From Kiloniellaceae bacterium (GTDB taxonomy: Bacteria; Pseudomonadota; Alphaproteobacteria; Kiloniellales; J153): a DNA stretch of 64,000 nucleotides. Under the pieces are notes generated by a model. It was not told the DNA's origin and did not search any database. It worked only from the letters and a program-made list of their open reading frames with translations. Of this stretch, positions 5,297 to 30,965 are shown one piece after another. Where the stretch lies: contig JAJFGN010000001.1 of assembly GCA_021776115.1 (NCBI GenBank), forward strand, positions 1 through 64,000, read 5' to 3'. A program made the translations under genes and the position numbers. Position 1 is the first letter of the stretch, and every line of letters starts with the position of its first letter.

Positions 5297-6226
5297 TCAG
5301 GCCTCCATTAGGGCGCGGACGTGCGCGGCGGCGCTCAATCCCAGAGCGTTGAGGTCATATCCGCCTTCCAGCGCCGATACAATGCGGCCACCGCAAACCT
5401 GCCGGGCAATGGCGACGAGTTCGCTCGTCACCCAGGCATAGTCATCTTCGTGGAGGCGTAATCCAGCCAATGGATCGTCCACGTGGGCATCGAACCCGGC
5501 CGAGATCAAGATAATCTCGGGTTGGAATTCAATCAGTGCCGGAAAAATAATATCCCGTGTTGCCTGCCGGAACTCTTCTGACCCGGACATCGCGGCCAGG
5601 GGCGCGTTGACGATATTGGTGAAGCGGCCGCGCTCGACCCGGTCGCCGGTGCCCGGATAAAACGGCATCTGGTGGGTCGAGGCATAGAACAGATCGCGGT
5701 CGTCCCAGAACACCGCCTGGGTTCCATTGCCGTGATGGACATCGAAATCGACCACGGCGGCCCGTTGCAGGCCATGAACCGCCCGCGCCTGCAGGGCGCC
5801 GATGGCAACGTTGCTGAACAGGCAAAAGCCCATGGCGCGGTCCGGTTCCGCGTGGTGGCCCGGGGGGCGCACGGCACAGAAGGCGTTGCCGGCCTCCCCG
5901 CGGGTCACGGCATCGACCGCGGCACAGACCGCGCCCGCGGCCCGTAGCGCCGCCCGCCCCGACCCGGGAGACACAATCGTGTCCGCATCCAGGCCGGCAT
6001 AACCGTGCTCGGGAATCGCCTTTAGAACTTGATCGACGAAGCCGGCGGGATGAACCCGGAGCAATTGCTCCCGCGTCGCCTCTGGCGCCTCGCGCCGCTC
6101 AAGGGCCGCGAAGGCCGGATCGTCCAGAGCATCGAGCACGGCTTTCAGCCGGGCTGGACATTCCGGGTGCCCCCGGCCGGGATCGTGCTCGAAACAGGCG
6201 GGGTGGGTATAAAGCAGGGTCGTCAT
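5297..6226 (-). CDS. Histone-deacetylase-family amidohydrolase (AcuC/AphA-like)
   Basis: This 309-aa Zn-dependent deacetylase-family protein shows all the family landmarks: HPECPARL, RPPGHHAEPDRAMGFCLFSN with the catalytic His pair, VVDFDVHHGNGTQ with Asp and His metal ligands, SAGFDAHVDDPLAGL with the third metal Asp, and the terminal EGGYD. Bacterial members deacetylate acetyl-polyamines, acetoin-related substrates or acetyl-lysine; the substrate here cannot be read. It probably heads the minus-strand unit continuing through xseB, ispA, dxs and tlyA, a linkage common in alphaproteobacteria but functionally unexplained. Confidence 0.92.
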   Translation of the reverse strand: MTTLLYTHPACFEHDPGRGHPECPARLKAVLDALDDPAFAALERREAPEATREQLLRVHPAGFVDQVLKAIPEHGYAGLDADTIVSPGSGRAALRAAGAVCAAVDAVTRGEAGNAFCAVRPPGHHAEPDRAMGFCLFSNVAIGALQARAVHGLQRAAVVDFDVHHGNGTQAVFWDDRDLFYASTHQMPFYPGTGDRVERGRFTNIVNAPLAAMSGSEEFRQATRDIIFPALIEFQPEIILISAGFDAHVDDPLAGLRLHEDDYAWVTSELVAIARQVCGGRIVSALEGGYDLNALGLSAAAHVRALMEA

Positions 6227-6484
6227 CGCGCCGTCCTTCCACTCAGCCTAGTGTTAAACTGGCGGCCACTCGAACGCCACCGGGATTTCCGCCGGTGTTT
6301 CCCGTGGCGGAAACTTTCGATCAATTCGCACTTGTTTTCTAGCCCTTTGCGGTCATTGACTTGTGCTAAGCTGAGCGCCACATGCCTAGACACTGTGCCC
6401 AGAGTGTCCTGGGAATACTGTCCTTTTTGCCTGGAGGCAACTCTGAGCGCCCGCGCCCCGATCTTGTCCTTTTTACCCAAGGCA

Positions 6485-7579
6485 ATGGCCCTGGCCGTGG
6501 CCGCCTTGAGCCTCGCCGGCCTATCGAGCGCCCCCAGGGCCCAAGCGCCCGAGGTCTTGGTGCGTGTGGACGAGGTCCGGCAAGTCCCCCTAACTCAGTC
6601 GGTCCCGATCATCGGCCGTATCGTCGCGCAAAGATTAGGTGTCGTCGCGGCCCGGGTCGGCGGGCCCGTCGCCGCCTTCAAGGTCGAAGTCGGCGACCGG
6701 GTCGAGGCCGGCCAGATCTTGGCTGAATTGGACCAGGCGATCCTGAAGGCGAAGCGGGATATCGCCGCCGGGCGCTTGGCCGAGGCACAGGCTGAAAAAG
6801 GCAAGAATTTGGCCGAAGTCACCTTGGCCAAACAAGACTTTAAGCGCATGGAAGGCTTGCGAAAATCGGCCGCGTTCAACGAGGCCCGCTACGACGATAG
6901 CCGCCAGCAGGTCGCCATCGCCCAAGCCGGCGTACACCAGGCGGACTCCGCCATCGCCAGCGCCAGGGCCGATCTCGATCTGGCCGAAATCAACTTAAAC
7001 GATGCGCGCATCAATGCGCCCTATGCAGGTGTGGTGACGGAGCGCCTGACGGAGGCCGGCGCCTATGTCCAAAGCGGCGATCCGATGCTCCGCATGATTG
7101 GAGATCAGCTTCTGGAGCTTGAAGCCGAGGTCCCGTTTCAAAACCTGGCGGGCCTGGAACCGGGTGTCGAGGTCGCGGTGGCGCTGGACGACGGCACGCG
7201 GCACACGGCGGTCGTGCGGGCGATACTGCCGTCCGAAAACCCGCTTACCCGTACCCGCACCGTGCGCCTGGTCCCCAACATTGGACAAACGCGCCGGAGT
7301 TTGGCTCACGACCAGAGCGTGACCCTAGAGGTCCCCATTGGGTCCGAGCGGCAAGTCCTATCCGTTCACAAAGACGCGGTGATCGTCCAAGGCGGCCAAA
7401 AAATGGTGTATGTGGCGGCCGATGGCGAGGCGCAGGCGCGGACCGTTATCCTGGGCGACGCGATCGGCAGCCGGTTTGAAGTTCGCGAAGGTTTAGCCGC
7501 CGGCGATAAGGCCGTCGTGCGCGGCAACGAACGTCTGAGGCCGGGAGACAAGTTGAGCGTCGCCGGGGAATCGTCATGA
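6485..7579 (+). CDS. RND efflux periplasmic adaptor (membrane fusion protein)
   Basis: The protein of about 364 aa starts with a signal peptide ending APRAQA, followed by the split lipoyl/barrel-sandwich domain (VGGPVAAFKVEVGDRVEAGQ and INAPYAGVVTERLTEAGAYV), an alpha-hairpin rich in Ala/Gln/Glu, and a beta-barrel. The frame is open well upstream, so the start is uncertain. ATG 6485 is conservative; a CTG at 6443 lies five bases after GGAGG (6433-6437) and would give the signal peptide basic residues. The stop overlaps the permease start as ATGA, so the two are translationally coupled. It links the inner-membrane pump to an outer-membrane channel not encoded here. Confidence 0.92.
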   Translation: MALAVAALSLAGLSSAPRAQAPEVLVRVDEVRQVPLTQSVPIIGRIVAQRLGVVAARVGGPVAAFKVEVGDRVEAGQILAELDQAILKAKRDIAAGRLAEAQAEKGKNLAEVTLAKQDFKRMEGLRKSAAFNEARYDDSRQQVAIAQAGVHQADSAIASARADLDLAEINLNDARINAPYAGVVTERLTEAGAYVQSGDPMLRMIGDQLLELEAEVPFQNLAGLEPGVEVAVALDDGTRHTAVVRAILPSENPLTRTRTVRLVPNIGQTRRSLAHDQSVTLEVPIGSERQVLSVHKDAVIVQGGQKMVYVAADGEAQARTVILGDAIGSRFEVREGLAAGDKAVVRGNERLRPGDKLSVAGESS

Positions 7580-10500
7580 ACCTCATCCGGCTTTCGATCG
7601 AACGTCCGATCGCGGTCATCGCCGCTGTCTTGATGGTGGTTCTGTTTGGGATCGTCGCCCTGCAGGTTATTCCCATTCAACTGGCGCCCGATGTGGACCG
7701 GCCGGTGATAACCGTGACCACGACCTGGCCGGGCGCCGCGCCGGCGGAAGTCGAACGGGAAATCCTGAACCGGCAAGAAGAAGAAATGGCGGGTCTGGAA
7801 GGCCTGGAGCAGATCACGGGCCGGGCCGAGCCCGGACGAGCGCGTTTGACCCTGGAATTTGGCGTCAGCGCCAACATGGACCGCGCCTTGCTGCTGGTTT
7901 CCAACCGGCTCGACCGGGTTAACGGATACCCGGACGAAGCGAACGAACCGACCCTGGACACCGCGGGCAGCGAAGACAGCCCGATCGCTTGGTTCATTAT
8001 CAACCGGGCCAAGGATAACGAGCGCCCGATTCACGAGTTTGGCGACTTCGTCGAGGATGTGGTCAAGGACCGGATCGAACGCGTGCCGGGAGTCAGCCGC
8101 GTCAACGTATTCGGGGGCAGCGAGCGCCAAATCCAGATCACGGTCGAACCGCAATTGCTGGCCCGCTACGGCCTGACGCTTAGCAAAGTCGTCGCCACTT
8201 TGCGCGCCGCCAATGCCTCTGTCTCCGCCGGCGATGTCGAAGAGGGTAAGCGCCGCTATGTCGTGCGCACGGAAGGGGAACTCAACACCCTGGAGGCGGT
8301 TCGCGATGTCGTCCTGCGCACGTCGGCCGGATCGGGCGGCGGCGGCCTGGCCCGAGTCACCCTGGGAGACGTGGCCAATGTCGCCTTCGGATATGAAGAC
8401 CCCACCGCGACCATACGGCAGCTCGGCAAGGCCTCCATAGCCTTGAACGCGCTGCGGGAAACCGGCGCCAATGTGATCGAGGTCATGGGTGGCATTCGGG
8501 ACGCGGTCCAGGACTTGAACAACGGCGCTCTTCCGGCGGCCGGTCTGACCCTGCAGCAGGTCTACGACGAGACCGTGTATATCAACTCGTCCATCGACCT
8601 CGTTAAGCAAAACATTTACATCGGCGGCTCGCTGGCCATCGCTATTCTGTTGCTGTTCCTGCGCTCGCCGCGCGCGACGCTGATCATCTCGATCGCGATT
8701 CCCGTCTCGGTGATCGGCGCCTTCGTCGCGATGGCGGCGTTGGGCCGCTCGATCAACGTTATCTCTCTGGCCGGCTTGGCGTTCGCGGTCGGCATGGTGG
8801 TCGATGCCGCGATCGTGGTCCTGGAGAACATATACCGGCACCGCGAGTTGGGCCGGACCGCGAAAGAAGCCGCCTACCGGGGCACGAAGGAGGTCTGGGG
8901 CGCGGTTCTCGTCTCGGCGCTGACCACGGTCATGGTGTTCATTCCAATCCTGGTCATGCAATTGGAAATCGGCCAGTTGTTCCGCGACATCGCGGTCGCG
9001 ATATCGGTCTCGGTCCTGTTGTCGCTGCTGGTGTCGATTACCGTGATCCCGGCGCTTTCCAAGCGGGTGTTTGAATTCGGCCGCGTCAAGGACGACGAAA
9101 ACCGGCCCCACCGTCACCCCTTACCGGGGGTCGATCACCTCGCGCGCGGTTTCGTCGCCGCGGTCATGGCCTTCATTCGCGCGATCGTGCGCAGCCGCGT
9201 CCTGGCGTTTGGCGTCGTCGCCGCCATCACCTTGGCCGCCGCCGTTGGCTCGTGGCAGTTCCTGCCCAAGCTGGAGTATCTTCCCGAGGGCAATCGGAAT
9301 CTGGTCTTTGGCATCATCATTCCGCCGCCCGGCTACAACCTGGCCACGATGACCGAAATCGCCGAGGAGATCGAAAGCGAGATCAAGCCCCATTGGGCCT
9401 CTGTATCCGGGCGGGAGTCGAAGCCGGGCGAGCCGCCGAAGATCGAGCGCTTTTTCTTCGTGGCAACCCGCGCAAGCACCTTCCTGGGTGCGATATCGGT
9501 CGACCCGCAGCGAGTCGGCGAATTGATTCCGGTACTGCAAGAATCTGTATTCCGTGAACCGGGAACCTTCGGTTTCATCAATCAGCCGTCGATCTTCGGC
9601 CGCGGTCACGGCAGCGGGCGCAAGATAGATTTGGACATCTCCGGCCAGGACCTGGATCAGATTCTTTCTACGGCCGGACGGGTCGCCGGCAAGGTCGTTC
9701 AGATCCTGCCCCTCAACGAGGGCAATCAATTCCGGCCCAATCCGGGCCTGGAACTGGGCGCCCCAGAGGTGCGCGTGATCCCGAACCGCACCCGGTTGAA
9801 CGACAACGGCGTCACGGCGCGCGAGTTGGCCGAAACGATCGATGCCTTCAACGACGGTCTGCGGGTCGCGGAGGTGACCGCGGGCAGCGAACGCGTCGAC
9901 CTGATTATTCAAGGGCCTGACCGAAACGTGACCGAAACTCAGGGTATCGCCAATCTGCCGGTGGTCACCGCCAGCGGCCGGATCGTGCCCGCCGGATCCC
10001 TGGCCGATATTATCCTGACCTCGGGCCCGACCGAGATCCGCCACCGCGAGCGCTTCCGCACCGTCACCCTGGAAATTCGCCCGGCGCCGGGTGTGCCGCT
10101 CGAAGTCGCGCTCGACACCTTGCGTGAGAAGGTGATCGAGCCGCTGCGGGCGGAGGGTCTGCCACCCAGCATCCGGATCGAGCTGTCCGGCACGGCGGAC
10201 AAGCTGACTCAAACCTGGAACGCCATGGTCGTCGAGCTCGCGCTGGCCATTGCCATCGTGTACCTGGTTATGGCGGTCTTGTTCGAGAGCTTCATTTATC
10301 CGCTGATCATTCTACTTTCGGTGCCGGTGGCGGCCGCCGGCGGCGTGGCCGGACTGGTGGTCTTAAACTTCTACGTGTTTCAGCCGCTCGACATGCTGAC
10401 GCTGCTCGGCTTCGTCATCCTGATTGGCATCGTCGTGAACAACGCGATCCTGCTCGTGCACCAGACGCTGTACCACCTGCGCGAGGAAGGCATGGCGGTT

Positions 10501-24942: not shown

Positions 24943-24983
24943 ATCGGTGCGAAAGCTCGTTTCCGCGCCTATCGCGGACGGGT

Positions 24984-25607
24984 ATGGTGGCCGGGCTCAT
25001 GCTGAAGATTCGCGCTCTCGCCCGTCCCGGCCTGGAACCTGTCGATCTCGACCTCGCCGCGGGCGAGGCGGTGGCCCTGCTCGGCCCTTCGGGTTCGGGC
25101 AAGACCCTGTTGCTCCGGGCCATCGCCGACCTCGACCCGAACGACGGCAGTGTCGGTTTGGACGAGCGCGACCGCAATGCAATGACCGCGCCGCAATGGC
25201 GCCACCAAGTTACCTACCTGGCCGCGGAACCGGGCTGGTGGTCGGCACGCCCGGCCGATCACTTTGCCGACCCGGCGGCGGCGCGCGACCTGCTGCCGCC
25301 CTTGAAGCTCGCGCCCGAGATGCTGGACCGCCCGATCGCGGAACTGTCAACCGGCGAGCGGCAGCGCATCGCCCTGGCCCGCGTTTTGATCCAATCGCCC
25401 CAGGTCATGCTCCTGGATGAGCCGACCTCGGTTCTCGACCAGGAGACGACCCGCGCGGTCGAGGCGGTGCTGCGCGCGCGCCTGGATGCCGGGGCGGCTC
25501 TGATTTTCTCGACCCATGACGAGAGCTTGGCCAAGCGCCTCGCCAGCCGGCGCTTGCGTATGGAGAACGGCCGGGCGTCGTTCGAACCCGAAAGCGCAAT
25601 CGCATGA
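24984..25607 (+). CDS. fetA: FetA/YbbL-like ABC transporter ATPase
   Basis: About 207 aa. Walker A is LLGPSGSGKTLLLRA, the signature is ELSTGERQRIALARVL, Walker B is VMLLDEPTSVLD, and the switch His is in IFSTHDES. E. coli FetA pairs with FetB for iron export. ATG 24984 was chosen; ATG 24999 is an alternative. The frame runs far upstream through the MFS gene as shadow. The stop overlaps the permease start as ATGA. Confidence 0.86.
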   Translation: MVAGLMLKIRALARPGLEPVDLDLAAGEAVALLGPSGSGKTLLLRAIADLDPNDGSVGLDERDRNAMTAPQWRHQVTYLAAEPGWWSARPADHFADPAAARDLLPPLKLAPEMLDRPIAELSTGERQRIALARVLIQSPQVMLLDEPTSVLDQETTRAVEAVLRARLDAGAALIFSTHDESLAKRLASRRLRMENGRASFEPESAIA

Positions 25608-26407
25608 CCGCGTCCTACATCACGCTCGACTGGATGGACCTGATCTTGGCGGCGCTGCTGGTGATCTTGAACGGTGTCTTGTCGATCTGGCTGCACCTGC
25701 GCATGGAGCGCCAGTTCCTCATCGCCGCCTTGCGCATGTGCGTGCAGCTCGGCCTCATGGGGCTGGTTCTCAAGACCTTGTTCGCGCTGGTCTCGCCGGT
25801 TCTGACTGGCCTGGCGGTGCTGGTCATGGTGCTGTTCGCGGGACGCGAAATCATGGCCCGCCAGGAACGGAAGTTCCAAGGCTTTTGGGCCTATGGCTTG
25901 GGCACCAGCTCGGTTCTGTTCGCCGGAACGCTGGTCATGCTGTTCGCCTTGGCGACGCAGATACAGGCCGATCCCTGGTATCACCCGCGCTATGCGATTC
26001 CGCTGTTGGGCATGATCCTGGGCAACACCATGACCGGCATCGCGGTCGGCATGAATACCCTGACCGAGCGGGTCGCGCGCGACAAAAACGCGATCGAGAC
26101 CATGCTGGCGCTGGGCGAAACCCGGGGTGCGGCCTTGCGTCCCCTGGTTCGAAGCGCGGTACGCAATGGCTTGATTCCGATCGTCAACGCCATGTCGGCG
26201 GCCGGGGTCGTCTCGCTGCCCGGCATGATGACCGGGCAGATCCTGTCCGGGGTCGAGCCGTTGGAAGCCATCAAGTATCAGATACTGGTGATGTTCCTGA
26301 TCGCGGGCGGCACCGGGATCGGGGTGGTGATCGCCGTGCACGCCGCCGCCGCGCGCCTATCGGATACGCGCCACCGCCTGCGTCTGGATCGCTTGGAACT
26401 TGAGTGA
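25604..26407 (+). CDS. fetB: FetB/YbbM-like (UPF0014) ABC transporter permease
   Basis: A 267-aa membrane protein with about seven hydrophobic segments and UPF0014 hallmarks: FAGREIMARQERKFQGFW, ILGNTMTGIAVGMNTLTERVARDKNAIETMLALGETRGAAL, and LPGMMTGQILSGVEPLEAIKYQILVMFLI. With the ATPase just upstream it should form an exporter, probably for iron or involved in oxidative-stress resistance as described for E. coli FetAB. The stop is five bases from the convergent globin gene. Confidence 0.88.
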   Translation: MTASYITLDWMDLILAALLVILNGVLSIWLHLRMERQFLIAALRMCVQLGLMGLVLKTLFALVSPVLTGLAVLVMVLFAGREIMARQERKFQGFWAYGLGTSSVLFAGTLVMLFALATQIQADPWYHPRYAIPLLGMILGNTMTGIAVGMNTLTERVARDKNAIETMLALGETRGAALRPLVRSAVRNGLIPIVNAMSAAGVVSLPGMMTGQILSGVEPLEAIKYQILVMFLIAGGTGIGVVIAVHAAAARLSDTRHRLRLDRLELE

Positions 26408-26411
26408 GGCT

Positions 26412-27755
26412 TTAGGCTTTCGCCGCCGCTTTCATGGTGTCGGCCAAGACGGTGTAGACCTTGGTCCAGGCCGCTTCGACTTCCGATGTGAAGTCGCTTT
26501 TCAGCCCCTGCCCTAGAGTCCAAAGAAGTGCCGCCCCGACTGAGTCGTAGTGCTTGTCTTCGACCCCGTACTTTACGTGACGACGCCCCAGCTCTTGAAC
26601 CGCCGGCACCAATTTCTCTAGATCGTCCAGGCCTTTCACCGCCGTCTTTATCATGGCCATGAGCTTGCGGCCTTGCGCCTTCATATCGCCCTTGAAGAGA
26701 CCTTGAGCGGAGGGGTCGAGCGAGAACAAACGGCCGTAGAAAAGTTCGGCCGCTGCCTCGGCGATCGGTTCCACCTTGGCGAAGGTCGATTGAACCAACT
26801 TCACGTCGTCGTTGCTGACGGGCGATTCCGCCTTGGCAGGTGCTGGCGGCGCGGCGGGCTTCGATGGTGCCGGCACCGTGGCTGCCGCCGCCTTCATGGT
26901 ATCGGCCACGACCGTGTAAACCTTGGTCCAGGCCGCTTCGACCTCCGGTGTGAAGTCGGTTTGCAGGCCTTGTCCCAGGGTCCAAATGAGTGCCGCCGCG
27001 ACCGTGTCGTAGTCGGCGTCCTTTACCCCGTATCCGACGTGCCGCCGGCCTAAATCCTGCACCACCGGAACCAGCTTGGCTAGGTTGTCCAAACCCTTCA
27101 CGGCAACCTTCAGGGTCGACATCAATTTCTGGCCCTGCGCTTCCATATCGCCCTTGAAGAGCTGTTTCAGAGCCGGATCCAGTTCGAACAGCCGCTCGTA
27201 GAAGGTTCGTGCGACAACCGCCGCGATCGGCTCGACCTTGGCAAAGGTGCTTTGCACGATCTGCCGTTCGCGCGGCGAGACCGGTCCATCGCTCGCTGGC
27301 GGCGCTGCGACCTTGGCCGGGGCCGGGAAAGTTGGATTGACGTGCACCGGGGCCGGGGCCGGCGCGAACGCCGGGCTGGGGGCTTGGTAGATCGCCTCTG
27401 GCTGAGCCTGGCTCGCCGAAGCAAGATTGCTTGCCGAGAGACTCTCGGTTTGCGCACGAAGCCGCTCGACAAGCCCGGCGATTTCCTTGGTCGCCTGACT
27501 GGTTCGGCCCGACAGTTGCTTGACCTCGCCGGCCACGACCGCGAAGCCCTTCCCCAGCTCGCCCGCGCGCGCCGCTTCGATCGTCGCGTTCAGGGCCAGA
27601 AGGTTGGTCTGCCTGGCAATCGCCTGGATGGTTTCGGCCACCTCCGCGACTTTGTCGATTTCCTGGCGAAGCTGATCCAGTACGTCGCCAGAGGCCTCCG
27701 CGGAAGCGTCGCCCGATGCGCCGGTGCGACTTGTGGATCCTGCCGGTTGTGCCAT
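26412..27755 (-). CDS. Soluble chemoreceptor-tip protein fused to two tandem globin domains
   Basis: A 447-aa protein with no membrane segment. Residues about 24-105 form a short methyl-accepting-chemotaxis signalling hairpin with the highly conserved tip [21 protein letters not shown] (residues 46-66, G65/E66 at the end) and [15 protein letters not shown] Pro/Ala linker (110-160) leads to globin 1 (about 160-292), another Pro/Ala linker, and globin 2 (about 313-447). Both globins resemble neuroglobin/flavohaemoglobin: proximal His in [10 protein letters not shown] (H239) and [10 protein letters not shown] (H393), Gln at E7 (Q207, Q361). HemAT has the opposite domain order and one globin. ATG 27755 was chosen because AGAGG precedes it. 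Likely a cytoplasmic gas or redox sensor signalling through CheA/W; inference. Confidence 0.88.
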
Positions 27756-27945
27756 AGGAAGCCCTCTTTCTATAAATCTCGTCCCCGGGGGGAGCCCTGG
27801 TGGCATGTCGGTGCTGCTCTACCGACACGCGGATTCTTGTCCCAAGGTTGGATACCATGGGCCCGGTTAAGGGAGTATTAGGGCTATTTTCGGTGAGACG
27901 GGGCTGGTTAACAGGGTCGCCGCAAACGCTGAATAAGGACGGCGG

Positions 27946-28608
27946 CTAACTGTCGCTGGTCAATTCCAAGCGCGTCCGCCAACGGCCCTCGGCATCCCGG
28001 CAGGCGATGGCGCGGCGGGTTTCATTTCTCCCGTCCCCGGCACGAAAGGCGGCCTCAAAAACGTATTCGCGGCACCACAGGCCGGCCGCGCTGCGGAAGG
28101 TTCGAACCGGTTCGACCCGGCCGCTGCTGCCGCTCTGCGGATTATGCCAAGCCGCCGGCACGCCGCTGAGGTGTTTTTCCAGGGCCGTGGCGATCGTCGC
28201 CTGAATGATATCCCGGTCGGCGGCGCGGGCTGCCTCCAGGCGGGCCAGGCGTTGCTCGACTTGCTGGTCGACGAAGACATAGGCGCCGCCCAGGCCAAGG
28301 ATCAGTACCGCTATCGAGGCGGCCATGGCCGCGAAGGCTGGCCGGCCATGCCATGGAGTCTTACCGTTCTTTCTCTGCCTCGCCGCGAAGCCGGCATTCA
28401 CGGTCTCGATCAAGCACTCGGGAACCTGGGTGCGCATCGGCTCGGCGAAGGCCGCGTGCAGCGACGCGGCGCCTTCGCGCAAAGACCGCACCGTCTCCGC
28501 CAAGTCCGGGTCGGCGGCAATCGCGGCCTCGACGGCGTGCGCCGCCGTTTCGTCGAGCTCGCCGTCAACATAGGCCATCAAGGTTTCGTCATCGACTTGC
28601 CGGGTCAT
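27946..28608 (-). CDS. Membrane anti-sigma factor with 17-kDa-surface-antigen-like sensor domain
   Basis: 220 aa. The N-terminal cytoplasmic part (DETLMAYVDGELDETAAHAVEAAI) is an anti-sigma domain without the zinc HxxxCxxC motif. A single TM helix spans about residues 91-113. The extracytoplasmic part has a coiled region, then W-x-N-P...P-V-R-T-F...C179-R-E-Y...A-C203-R-D-A-E-G-R-W, the pattern of 17-kDa surface antigen C-terminal domains. The same pattern occurs in the secreted protein at 30585-30965. Start overlaps the sigma gene stop by four bases, so both are coupled and it should hold that sigma factor inactive until an envelope signal arrives. Confidence 0.82.
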   Translation of the reverse strand: MTRQVDDETLMAYVDGELDETAAHAVEAAIAADPDLAETVRSLREGAASLHAAFAEPMRTQVPECLIETVNAGFAARQRKNGKTPWHGRPAFAAMAASIAVLILGLGGAYVFVDQQVEQRLARLEAARAADRDIIQATIATALEKHLSGVPAAWHNPQSGSSGRVEPVRTFRSAAGLWCREYVFEAAFRAGDGRNETRRAIACRDAEGRWRTRLELTSDS

Positions 28609-29135
28609 TCGGGGAGACTCCCGCTAGTCTTTTCCTCCGGCGCGGCAGGTCCGTCGAGACCGTCTTTCAAGGTCGCGCGGGCCCTCGCCAGCCGGCTGGT
28701 CACCGTGCCCATCGGAATATCCAGGACCTCGGATACCTCTTTGTAGGAGAGTCCCTCGACGCAAACGAGCAGAAGGATGCTGCGCTGTTCCTCCGGCAAT
28801 CGCGCGGCCAGCCCGCGCACGGCCTCCAGGGTCAGTTGGGCTTCCATGGCCCGGGCGCCATCGACATAGGTGTAGTGGTCGATGCTCGCGACCTCCAGCC
28901 GTTGACCGCGGACCTTGTTGGCGCGGATCTGATTCAAGAACTGGTTCCGCGCAATCCTATACATCCAGCTATCCAGACGGGTTCCGGCCTGCCAAGTATC
29001 GATGCTGCGGATGGCGCGTTCGCAGGTCGCTTGCACCAGATCGTCTCCTTCGTCGATAGAGCCCGTCAACCCATAGGCAAATCGCCGTAAGCGCGGCAGC
29101 AAAGCGAGCATCTCCCGACGGAGTGATTCGTCCAC
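28605..29135 (-). CDS. ECF-family RNA polymerase sigma factor
   Basis: A 176-aa group IV sigma factor. Region 2: LLPRLRRFAYGLTGSIDEGDDLVQATCERAI and TRLDSWMYRIARNQFLNQIR. Region 4: RLPEEQRSILLLVCVEGLSYKEVSEVLDIPMGTVTSRLARARATL. It is co-transcribed with the anti-sigma gene. A promoter-like motif at 29200-29227 reads towards it, and a near-identical one reads towards the divergent Gly-rich gene, suggesting autoregulation plus direct control of that arm. Confidence 0.93.
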   Translation of the reverse strand: MDESLRREMLALLPRLRRFAYGLTGSIDEGDDLVQATCERAIRSIDTWQAGTRLDSWMYRIARNQFLNQIRANKVRGQRLEVASIDHYTYVDGARAMEAQLTLEAVRGLAARLPEEQRSILLLVCVEGLSYKEVSEVLDIPMGTVTSRLARARATLKDGLDGPAAPEEKTSGSLPE

Positions 29136-29199
29136 TTTTCTTTAACCATCCGTCAGATGCCGAGGCCCGTGCCCGGACGCGCGAGGGCGATCTCAAGAA

Positions 29200-29227
29200 G
29201 ATAACACCTCGGCGCCGAGTTTCTTCC
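29200..29227 (-). promoter_or_regulatory. Putative ECF promoter of the sigma/anti-sigma operon
   Basis: On the minus strand, GGAAGA (29222-29227) is followed after 16 bases by GTTATC (29200-29205), 65 bases before the sigma-factor ATG. The larger match to the opposite promoter is GGAAGAAAC, 11 bases, GTGTT. Such GGAA-type -35 boxes are typical for ECF sigma factors. Assignment rests on pattern and symmetry only. Confidence 0.6.
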
Positions 29228-29274
29228 CGGATACGGCAAAAATTGGTGCCGGGCCATATTTTGGCGTCCGGACT

Positions 29275-29302
29275 GGAAGAAACACCGAGCCGAAGTGTTT
29301 TC
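29275..29302 (+). promoter_or_regulatory. Putative ECF promoter of the Gly-rich secreted gene
   Basis: GGAAGA (29275-29280), 16-base spacer, GTTTTC (29297-29302), 82 bases before ATG 29384. It shares GGAAGAAAC-N11-GTGTT-N-TC with the motif facing the sigma gene at identical spacing. No such motif was found upstream of the second paralogue at 30064. Confidence 0.6.
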
Positions 29303-29383: not shown

Positions 29384-29893
29384 ATGCGTAGCAATTCGGC
29401 GAAACGAACTCTCACCCTGCTGACGACGACCAGCGTCCTCGCGCTCGGCTTGGCCATGACGCCGGTCGCGATCGATTTCGACCTGCACAAGCCCATCCTC
29501 AAGGCCGCTCAGGCTAAGGGCGGCGGTGAAGGCGGCGAAGGCGGAGGTGACGGCGGTGGAGATGGCGGCGGCGAAGGTGGCGGCGATGGCGATGGCGGCG
29601 GTGGCGACGGCAGTGGCGGCGAAGGTGGTGAAGGCGGCGAAGGTGAAGGTGGCGACGGCAGCGGCGGCGAAGGTGGTGAAGGCGGTGGCCACGGCGGCAA
29701 CAGCGGCCCGGGCGGCAACAGCGGCCCCGGCGGCGGCGAATCCGGCGATAGCGGCGGATCGGGCGAGTCGGGCGAAAGCGGTAACGACGGCTCCGAAAGC
29801 GAGGGACCGGAAAGCGGCGAGTCCGGCGATTCATCCAGCGAATCGGGTGAAAGCGGTAACGACGGCTCCTCCAGCTCGAACGCACGCACTTAA
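29384..29893 (+). CDS. Secreted Gly/Asp/Glu/Ser-rich low-complexity protein, paralogue 1
   Basis: 169 aa. The signal peptide is RTLTLLTTTSVLALGLAM...; cleavage is likely after AQA near residue 46. The rest is almost entirely GGG-E/D, GSGG and later SGES/GNDGS repeats, very acidic, without cysteines, and probably disordered. The frame is open upstream to 29123, but ATG 29384 places the signal peptide at the N-terminus. It shares 35 of 40 residues in the signal region with the next gene, so the pair arose by tandem duplication. Function unknown; likely an envelope or exported filler/adhesive protein under ECF control. Confidence 0.75.
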   Translation: MRSNSAKRTLTLLTTTSVLALGLAMTPVAIDFDLHKPILKAAQAKGGGEGGEGGGDGGGDGGGEGGGDGDGGGGDGSGGEGGEGGEGEGGDGSGGEGGEGGGHGGNSGPGGNSGPGGGESGDSGGSGESGESGNDGSESEGPESGESGDSSSESGESGNDGSSSSNART

Positions 29894-30063
29894 GGTCCGG
29901 AGAGCCGCTTGACCAGCGCGGGTGAAGATCCAAGGTTAAGTTTTGGATCGAGGCGTGCCCGGATTCCGGGTCGCCGCCCGCCCTGGTGTTGTGTATCTTG
30001 GTTGTTAGGGAAAATATCTGTGCCGATCCAACAGGCGTTTCAAGGCAGCAGGACCCGCGTTCC

Positions 30064-30588
30064 ATGCTTCGTTTGAACAACCGTACCCTGACCCTGCTGA
30101 CAACGACCAGCATCCTGGCGCTCGGCCTGGCCATGGCGCCAATCGCGATCGACTTCGACCTGCACAAGCCCGTCCTCAAAACCGCTCAGGCTAAGGGCGG
30201 CGAAGGCGGCGAAGGTGGGGGTGACGGCGGCGGTGACGGCGGCGGTGACGGTGGCGGCGACGGCAGTGGCGGCGAAGGTGGCGGCGACGGCGAAGGTGAG
30301 GGCTCCGGCGGCGACGGCAGTGGCGGTGAAGGCGGCGGTGAAGGCGAGGGTTCCGGCAGCGAAGGCGGCGAGTCTGGCGGGAACAGCGGGCCTGGGGGCG
30401 GCGAGTCAGGCGAAAGCGGCGAGTCGAGTGAAGGCAGCGAATCCGGTGAATCCGGCAGTTCCGGGTCCGGCAGTTCCGGGTCCGGCGGTCGCGGTTCCGG
30501 CGATGCCTCCTTCGGCGGTGTCGATCAGGTCGGCCCGGACTTGAGCAGCGACGAAGAGGCGGCCGCGATTTCGAAGGGTTGGGAATGA
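30064..30588 (+). CDS. Secreted Gly/Asp/Glu/Ser-rich low-complexity protein, paralogue 2
   Basis: 174 aa. ATG 30064 begins a signal peptide nearly identical to paralogue 1 (RTLTLLTTTSILALGLAM), followed by the same GGEGGGDGG repeats. Unlike paralogue 1 it ends in a non-repetitive tail (SFGGVDQVGPDLSSDEEAAAISKGWE, shown in parts) that may be a folding or docking motif. The stop overlaps the next gene's ATG as ATGA, so it is coupled to the surface-antigen-like gene. Confidence 0.77.
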   Translation: MLRLNNRTLTLLTTTSILALGLAMAPIAIDFDLHKPVLKTAQAKGGEGGEGGGDGGGDGGGDGGGDGSGGEGGGDGEGEGSGGDGSGGEGGGEGEGSGSEGGESGGNSGPGGGESGESGESSEGSESGESGSSGSGSSGSGGRGSGDASFGGVDQVGPDLSSDEEAAAISKGWE

Positions 30589-30965
30589 TCGCCACGCACC
30601 GGGCGCGCCACGCCTGTGCGGTGGGGTCGCTTGTGATTCTGGGCCTTGGTTTGAGCCTTCTTCCGAACCGCCTTCTGGCGTCGCAACATGGTGTCTTCGA
30701 TCGCCAAAATGCAGCGGACCGGCAGCTTGCCGCGCGAGTCATGCAGGAAACTCTTGAATCGGGCCGCAGCGGCAACCCCCGCTTTTGGCGCAACGACCTA
30801 AGCGAAGGTTCGGGCTCGTTCATGCCGCTTCGCACCTACAAAATTAAGACCGGACATTTCTGCCGCGACTACCGCGAAACAGCGATTGCCGATCGCCGGA
30901 TGGCGTCGCGGGATCTCACGGCCTGCCGAACCCAAGACGGTGTGTGGACGACAGTCGGAAAGTGA
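30585..30965 (+). CDS. Secreted protein with 17-kDa-surface-antigen-like domain
   Basis: 126 aa. An N-terminal hydrophobic signal (ACAVGSLVILGLGLSLLP) leads to a domain at about 55-126 with the pattern LESGRSGNPRFWRND...PLRTYKIKTGHF-C93-RDY...TA-C114-RTQDGVW. This is the same pattern as the extracytoplasmic part of the anti-sigma factor at 27946-28608 (LE..SG.P..W.N...G..P.RT..G..CR.Y..AC R..GRW). The two Cys may form a disulfide. Coupled by ATGA overlap to the Gly-rich gene upstream. It could compete with or mimic the sensor domain; this is inference. Confidence 0.78.
   Translation: MIATHRARHACAVGSLVILGLGLSLLPNRLLASQHGVFDRQNAADRQLAARVMQETLESGRSGNPRFWRNDLSEGSGSFMPLRTYKIKTGHFCRDYRETAIADRRMASRDLTACRTQDGVWTTVGK

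Follow-up and report, generated by a model that had tools for sequence, protein, structure and literature searches.

Domain layout and conservation of the tip-globin protein

The window analysed here is the 64,000-nucleotide stretch at positions 1 to 64,000 of contig JAJFGN010000001.1 (assembly GCA_021776115.1, Kiloniellaceae bacterium), and the gene in question is a minus-strand open reading frame at 26412..27755, encoding a 447-residue protein in which the signalling tip of a methyl-accepting chemotaxis protein (MCP) is followed by two globins. The frame begins with an ATG at 27755, upstream of which lies the stretch GAAAGAGG, and the N-terminus of the protein can be aligned with that of its counterpart in G002, a separately assembled genome of the same genus. 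The original prediction, made from the sequence alone, had left the strand unspecified; the same frame read on the plus strand of 26412-27755 is interrupted by stops. The predicted order of a tip and then two globins was borne out by Pfam, which matched MCPsignal at residues 11-110 (profile positions 10-109 of 172, 99 bits against a cut-off of 34.6) and Globin over two stretches (144 bits for the whole protein, cut-off of 22), and by the AlphaFold2 model. Protoglobin, at 18.3 bits, fell under its cut-off of 25.

The mini receptor hairpin occupies residues 17-116 (27408..27707), as delimited by MCPsignal and the modelled helices, and holds a tip core at residues 49-79 (27519..27611; QTNLLALN...GEVK), defined by its identity to the genome's own receptors and by its ratio of nonsynonymous to synonymous substitution (dN/dS). 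The tip predicted at about residues 46-66 corresponds roughly to this invariant core, but the hairpin itself is longer. A Pro/Ala-rich linker at residues 117-157 (27285..27407) leads to globin 1 at residues 158-291 (26883..27284; Pfam Globin, modelled helices at 161-291), and a second one at residues 292-312 (26820..26882) leads to globin 2 at residues 313-446 (26418..26819; Pfam Globin and a PDB match), all on the minus strand. The linkers, also foreseen, are 56% and 67% Pro plus Ala, and the predicted local distance difference test score (pLDDT) is below 50 within them, at residues 118-155 and 300-308. The AlphaFold2 model (mean pLDDT of 80.7, predicted template modelling score [pTM] of 0.42) comprises helices at 17-63 and 65-116, an unstructured stretch at 118-155, and all-helical globins within 161-291 and 315-446; since the pTM is low, the relative placement of these parts carries no meaning. 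The Kyte-Doolittle 19-residue mean peaks at only 0.97 over the whole protein, and therefore no membrane segment is expected, as had been claimed.

In G002 the same tip-globin-globin order is found, in a protein 77% identical to that of the window. Between the two, the dN/dS was 0.02 for the tip core (residues 40-90), 0.17 for the whole tip, 0.07 for globin 1, and 0.13 for globin 2, versus 0.33 and 0.61 for the linkers. The tip and both globins are thus under purifying selection and far more constrained than the linkers. The same frame, the same order, and the shared neighbours in G002 rule out a join of separate genes by assembly or frameshift, and with it the two outcomes that would have told against the prediction, such a join and an absence of the architecture from related genomes. 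The analysis confirms that the protein is real and conserved, with two known parts combined in an unfamiliar way.

The globins are of the single-domain/flavohaemoglobin type

The proximal histidines (His239 and His393) and the Gln residues at E7 (Gln207 and Gln361) named in the original prediction are in place in globins 1 and 2, respectively, together with Tyr186/Tyr340 and Phe200/Phe354; we take Tyr, Phe, and Gln to stand at helix positions B10, CD1, and E7. B10 Tyr, CD1 Phe, E7 Gln, and F8 His are invariant in 60/60 aligned globins, a count that includes the short globin L072, which was left out of the globin tree and the clade test described below. The top phmmer matches were HGbI and HGbRL (E value for HGbI of 2e-28), and the PDB match was HGbI (3s1i) over residues 317-443. 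In Foldseek the first six matches were fused haemoglobin alpha chains, and the best single globin was the oxygen-bound Hell's Gate globin I (template modelling score of 0.93 by target length, 1.2 Å, 40% identity). The best NCBIfam match of the globins was the flavohaemoprotein model, at 144 bits under its cut-off of 432, and no FAD/NAD reductase domain was found among the Pfam matches of the window protein. The globins are of the single-domain/flavohaemoglobin type and match HGbI in both sequence and fold.

The two globins are close, with 96/134 residues identical, as the suggestion of an internal duplication had it, but the duplication does not look recent: in the globin tree, the window's globin 1 clusters with that of G002 and with the one globin that G001 and G003 each carry (support, 100/99), not with globin 2, which forms a separate clade with globin 2 of G002 (97/94). 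Both clades lie within a ten-row set that also contains the N-terminal globins of G005 and G007 and the G060 globin (94/88). From this grouping, either the doubling predates the split of the genus or globin 2 came from a receptor like those of G005 and G007. The tandem of G242 was doubled independently, its two globins being sisters (98/90). Two tandem globins of the window type were also seen without a tip at 5959-6849 of CALHCK010000106.1 (L044), a metagenome-assembled genome binned as Polaribacter and possibly misbinned.

The mini tips form a distinct family

The receptor part is much shortened, as had been predicted, with modelled hairpin arms no longer than 47 and 52 residues, which we estimate at about 12 to 14 heptads; the shortest class model in MiST3, according to the parts of that source consulted, is 24H (PMC6943060). 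Its tip core is the portion that ordinary receptors share, 27 to 29 of the 31 residues being identical to those of the genome's three other receptors; adaptation (methylation) helices beside the tip are lacking, the MCPsignal match ending at position 109 of 172. Mini tips have a shared pattern of their own in the arms that flank this common core, and in a tree of 58 tips one branch splits the 35 mini from the 23 full-length tips (99/97). When 12 long soluble receptors (L291-L302) were added, the ordinary receptors stood behind one branch (100/100, length of 2.36), the mini tips stayed one group (88/87, length of 0.41), and the long soluble receptors fell between, 11 of the 12 on the mini side and L294, weakly, on the other (77/85); by branch length their tips are closer to the mini tips than to the ordinary receptors. 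Both trees are unrooted, rest on about 100 columns, and leave most inner forks unresolved; L159, cut by a contig end, was left out of both, L156 (two tips) and L180 also out of the enlarged one, and duplicates (L043 and L071, equal to L076 and L077; L176 and L187, equal to L181 and L179) out of the tip and globin alignments and trees where they applied.

The mini tips thus make up a receptor-tip family of their own, some members of which have no sensor attached. Standalone representatives (L086, L087, L088-L092, L162-L166, L170, and L171), in frames of about 112 to 199 residues, occur across alphaproteobacterial families. In G001 a Gate (nucleoside-recognition) gene directly adjoins the gene for tip and globin, and in G018, G048, and G053 one lies beside the standalone tip, a common neighbour that ties the tips with a globin to those without one.

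The 12 long soluble receptors, of about 470 to 515 residues, carry their tip early (at residue 139 to 184) and a further C-terminal region with an NGYLPTHN-like motif, in which the four that were scanned gave no confident Pfam match. An N-terminal signalling part therefore has a precedent. On one reading, mini tips are shrunken descendants of such early-tip receptors, which would account for the N-terminal position of the tip.

The residue before QTN, which we take to be position 373 of Escherichia coli Tsr, was K or R in 31 of 36 mini tips and in none of the 23 full receptors sampled first. We considered this charge as a mark of pairing with acidic receptors, an idea undercut in a wider sample, where another nine long-frame tips had K; the six of these that were fetched whole (L291-L294, L297, and L298) are receptors with the C-terminal region. 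The residue therefore tracks the ancestry of the tip class at least as much as partnership. R was found in one more row, L228 (G126), where the sequence ahead of the tip is apparently out of frame; the wider sample gave no pattern match in L225, L235, L237, L243, or L283 and left out L281 (11 bases) and L249 (inside L246).

Globins and tips were joined more than once

At least 12 of the 61 genomes of the order encode a tip and a globin in one frame, and at least 13 further ones encode a tip alone in a frame of 112 to 199 residues (8 of these 13 standalone tips were fetched and aligned). In a class sample of 385 genomes, the order tip-globin was found in at least 7 (the window's own included), globin-tip in at least 3 (that of G344 meets a contig end), and a tip alone in at least 9 (all fetched except that of G328). 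In a phylum sample of 398 genomes, tip-globin occurred only in the window's own genome among the matches listed; G572 gave a match of 33%, and a 139-residue frame of G682 may be a standalone tip. The arrangement varies: G001 and G003, of the same genus as the window, have a tip and one globin, G242 has tip-globin-globin, G338 has tip-tip-globin, and G252, G344, and G175 have globin-tip. Two of the genomes that share the genus of the window are published as Kiloniellaceae metagenome-assembled genomes.

Globins of the window type are not confined to mini tips. Full PAS-receptors of G005 and G007, from the window's family, have one at the N-terminus (63 to 70% identical in the best alignments), and the CheA of L049 carries one (58% identical) in an insertion of about 290 residues within its first CheW domain; this hybrid of 1257 residues (6012-9782 of JACNJX010000032.1) is otherwise 58 to 60% identical to the organism's own CheA. 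Window-type globins were also observed at the C-terminus of longer frames (L160, 3859-4770; L167, 2863-4830; L061, 467-1387); the N-terminal part had no Pfam match in L160 and L167, the two scanned.

A tree test rejected a single clade of all 24 globins fused to mini tips (P = 0.00013) but did not reject one of the 21 tip-first fused globins (P = 0.35); the fused globin of G175 is sister to that of the standalone globin gene next door (100/98). Fusion of globin and tip has thus happened on more than one occasion, the best argument for a function of their pairing.

Chemosensory genes in the carrier genomes

The window genome, a draft in 85 contigs, contains one che operon that was found (L074), in the order cheA-cheW-cheY-cheB-cheR. 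Its CheA has Hpt, dimerisation, and kinase domains, two CheW stretches, and a receiver, and is followed by CheW, a CheY-like protein, CheB, and CheR. Flagellin matches are present as well, as are four receptor matches, the tip-globin protein included. Receptor genes L001 and L002 of this genome lie at contig starts, and their first repeats are almost the same, a sign that contigs may end within repeats. CheW domains were found in 36 of the 39 mini-tip genomes tested (G058 and G175 were outside the test), and within the order mini tips occurred in 23 of 48 CheW-positive and 0 of 10 CheW-negative genomes (P = 0.004, kinship ignored). Several receptor matches without a CheA, CheW, or CheR match were observed in G103 and G172 (L153, L155, and L181-L186).

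Neighbouring genes in the window

An extracytoplasmic function (ECF) sigma factor gene (28605-29135, minus strand; Pfam Sigma70_r2/r4_2) lies upstream of the tip-globin gene and is followed by a gene at 27946-28608 (minus strand) for a probable anti-sigma partner, a label inferred from its position, since only 17kDa_Anti_2 was matched. No ECF gene was found in the stretch examined around the G001 copy, so this pair is probably not part of the function of the tip-globin gene, and the suspicion that its vicinity is coincidental looks well placed. No match to a sigma-70-type promoter was found in 26300-29300. In each of the four genomes of the genus, genes for an ABC ATPase and a UPF0014 membrane protein (24951-26407 in the window) run convergently towards the tip-globin gene. 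Repetitive reading frames rich in Gly, Ser, Glu, and Asp adjoin the ECF gene at 29400-30590, and similar ones lie near the G003 copy.

Discussion

The function that we propose for the window protein, and to which we give an even chance, is that of a soluble, non-methylatable haem-based sensor of oxygen (or another haem ligand) that docks in the chemosensory array by way of a minimal tip. The hairpin would pair as a receptor tip does and take its place among ordinary receptors bound to CheA and CheW, and one or two flexibly tethered globins would relay the haem-ligand state to the array by altering the packing or the occupancy of the tips. As methylation helices are lacking, its own output would not adapt. 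The hairpin tips of E. coli receptors bear the trimer contacts and the determinants of CheA and CheW binding, as stated in the portion of PMC4692393 consulted. Docking into CheA/CheW arrays is plausible, given that receptors and a CheA also contain this globin type; dimerisation, docking, the identity of the ligand, and the effect of the tip-globin protein on kinase activity are what we infer.

Several observations weigh against such a sensor. The tip-globin gene of the window genome is not part of the che operon, and the neighbourhoods of tip genes inspected, in which not every neighbour was scanned, showed no che gene. G103 (97% complete) and G172 (98%) carry tip-globin, and matches to CheW, the CheA dimerisation domain, and CheR were not found in them; nor were CheW and CheA matches in G060 (87% complete), which has a CheR match within a very long frame. 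A flagellin match was not found in G126, which is CheW positive, or in G172, which has no CheW match; G103 and G060 do have flagellin matches. Many mini tips, moreover, lack a sensor, so the role of the tip need not be oxygen sensing. Assembly gaps or a role free of CheA are both possible causes of the missing che matches in G103, G172, and G060.

Such a CheA-independent role, in which the tip would bind a different protein, for instance a histidine kinase or transcription factor, with the globin tuning it through the haem ligand, strikes us as unlikely, although it has the two nearly complete genomes just named on its side. It would also fit the histidine kinase genes found directly downstream of the tip gene in G126, second downstream in G103, and divergent from the standalone tip in G027, the single protoglobin gene directly after the tip-globin gene of G172, and the precedent of Tls in E. 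coli (PMC12623472, seen in part). The prevalence of CheW domains among mini-tip genomes and the fact that the tip core is the very portion common to ordinary receptors speak for the array, and the three other receptor matches kept by each of G103 and G172 make a gap in these assemblies possible.

We rate somewhat lower still the idea that the globins do not sense but, tethered to the array through the tip, store a ligand or act as a nitric oxide (NO) dioxygenase. Their nearest PDB relatives are the single-domain globins HGbI and HGbRL, and their top NCBIfam match, though far under its cut-off, is a flavohaemoprotein, but the protein has no reductase domain, and in full receptors this globin type occupies the place where the sensor usually sits, which fits sensing. 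Lower again we place an array modulator whose tip does the work by diluting or blocking receptor positions, the globins being a minor or structural add-on. The frequency of standalone mini tips in the order and class samples agrees with it; the haem residues kept in every aligned globin, the low dN/dS of both globins, and the repeated independent fusions do not. That the protein is an artefact of a draft assembly can be practically dismissed, given the frame, order, and neighbours shared with G002, the single-globin forms in many genomes, and the purifying selection on every domain.

Beyond the proposed plug-in sensor of the window, we suggest more tentatively, and would not yet rely on it, that free-standing tips of about 110 to 200 residues may form an undescribed alphaproteobacterial family of soluble array subunits that tune CheA; globins would have been gained more than once, after or before the tip, to make an oxygen gauge, and in one lineage the globin type would have entered CheA itself. 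In the usual view, arrays receive their input from full-length receptors that include an adaptation region. If the suggestion is true, the lattice takes input via plug-in subunits and not only via full receptors. From a conserved family of tips without a sensor or adaptation region, some of them wired to a globin, it would follow that the array can be tuned by small soluble subunits. What the least part of a receptor is that still controls CheA thereby becomes a testable question. That a single globin type was repeatedly paired with chemosensory proteins, be they tips, full receptors, or a CheA, also suggests a role in chemosensing for globins that are usually discussed in terms of NO detoxification or oxygen storage. 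We found no description of a tip-globin protein or of a family of free-standing tips in the literature covered (titles and the starts of abstracts, with few subscription journals), and the word "globin" is absent from the main text of a CheA survey (PMC10782961).

Among known systems, Tls of E. coli is a receptor-like protein acting outside chemotactic signalling; it is a precedent for the CheA-independent role, and no globin is described for it in the part of the source seen (PMC12623472). A flavohaemoglobin differs in its FAD/NAD reductase domain, for which the window protein has no Pfam match. The solved globins closest to those of the window are HGbI and HGbRL of Methylacidiphilum infernorum. 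HGbI has Tyr B10 and Gln E7, as the window globins do, and, as reported in the portion of PMC11203436 consulted, binds O2 with high affinity and autoxidises slowly, properties that the window globins may share by analogy. HGbRL, like them, is a fused globin (PMC4476040, seen in part). Unlike the window protein, HGbI is a single domain and HGbRL joins an N-terminal globin to a Roadblock domain.

Nearer to the window, the PAS-receptors of G005 and G007 have the same globin type but differ in their frames of 830 to 1065 residues, with the globin first and a fuller MCP signalling domain at the end. The long soluble receptors L291-L302 likewise place the signalling part ahead of the other domain and have tips near the mini tips, but they are longer, with a longer coiled coil and no globin. 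The receptors of the HemAT type (HemAT-Bs, HemAT-Hs, and Atu1027) are, like the window protein, soluble and built of a globin and a receptor signalling part; Atu1027 binds CheW and requires its haem histidine, according to the part of PMC10851874 seen. Compared with these receptors, the order is reversed in the window protein, as had been predicted: its globins are C-terminal, and they are doubled and match Pfam Globin well above the cut-off and Protoglobin below it, and its signalling part is a short hairpin. Of the features of globin-coupled sensors, it has the proximal His and the distal residues that stabilise the ligand, but not the N-terminal globin with a C-terminal output or a protoglobin-like globin; of those of a methyl-accepting chemotaxis protein, it has the signalling tip core. 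By its order and globin type it thus departs from the former, and by its lack of an adaptation region from a standard member of the latter, so that we file it under neither, although it may still work as globin-coupled sensors or methyl-accepting proteins do.
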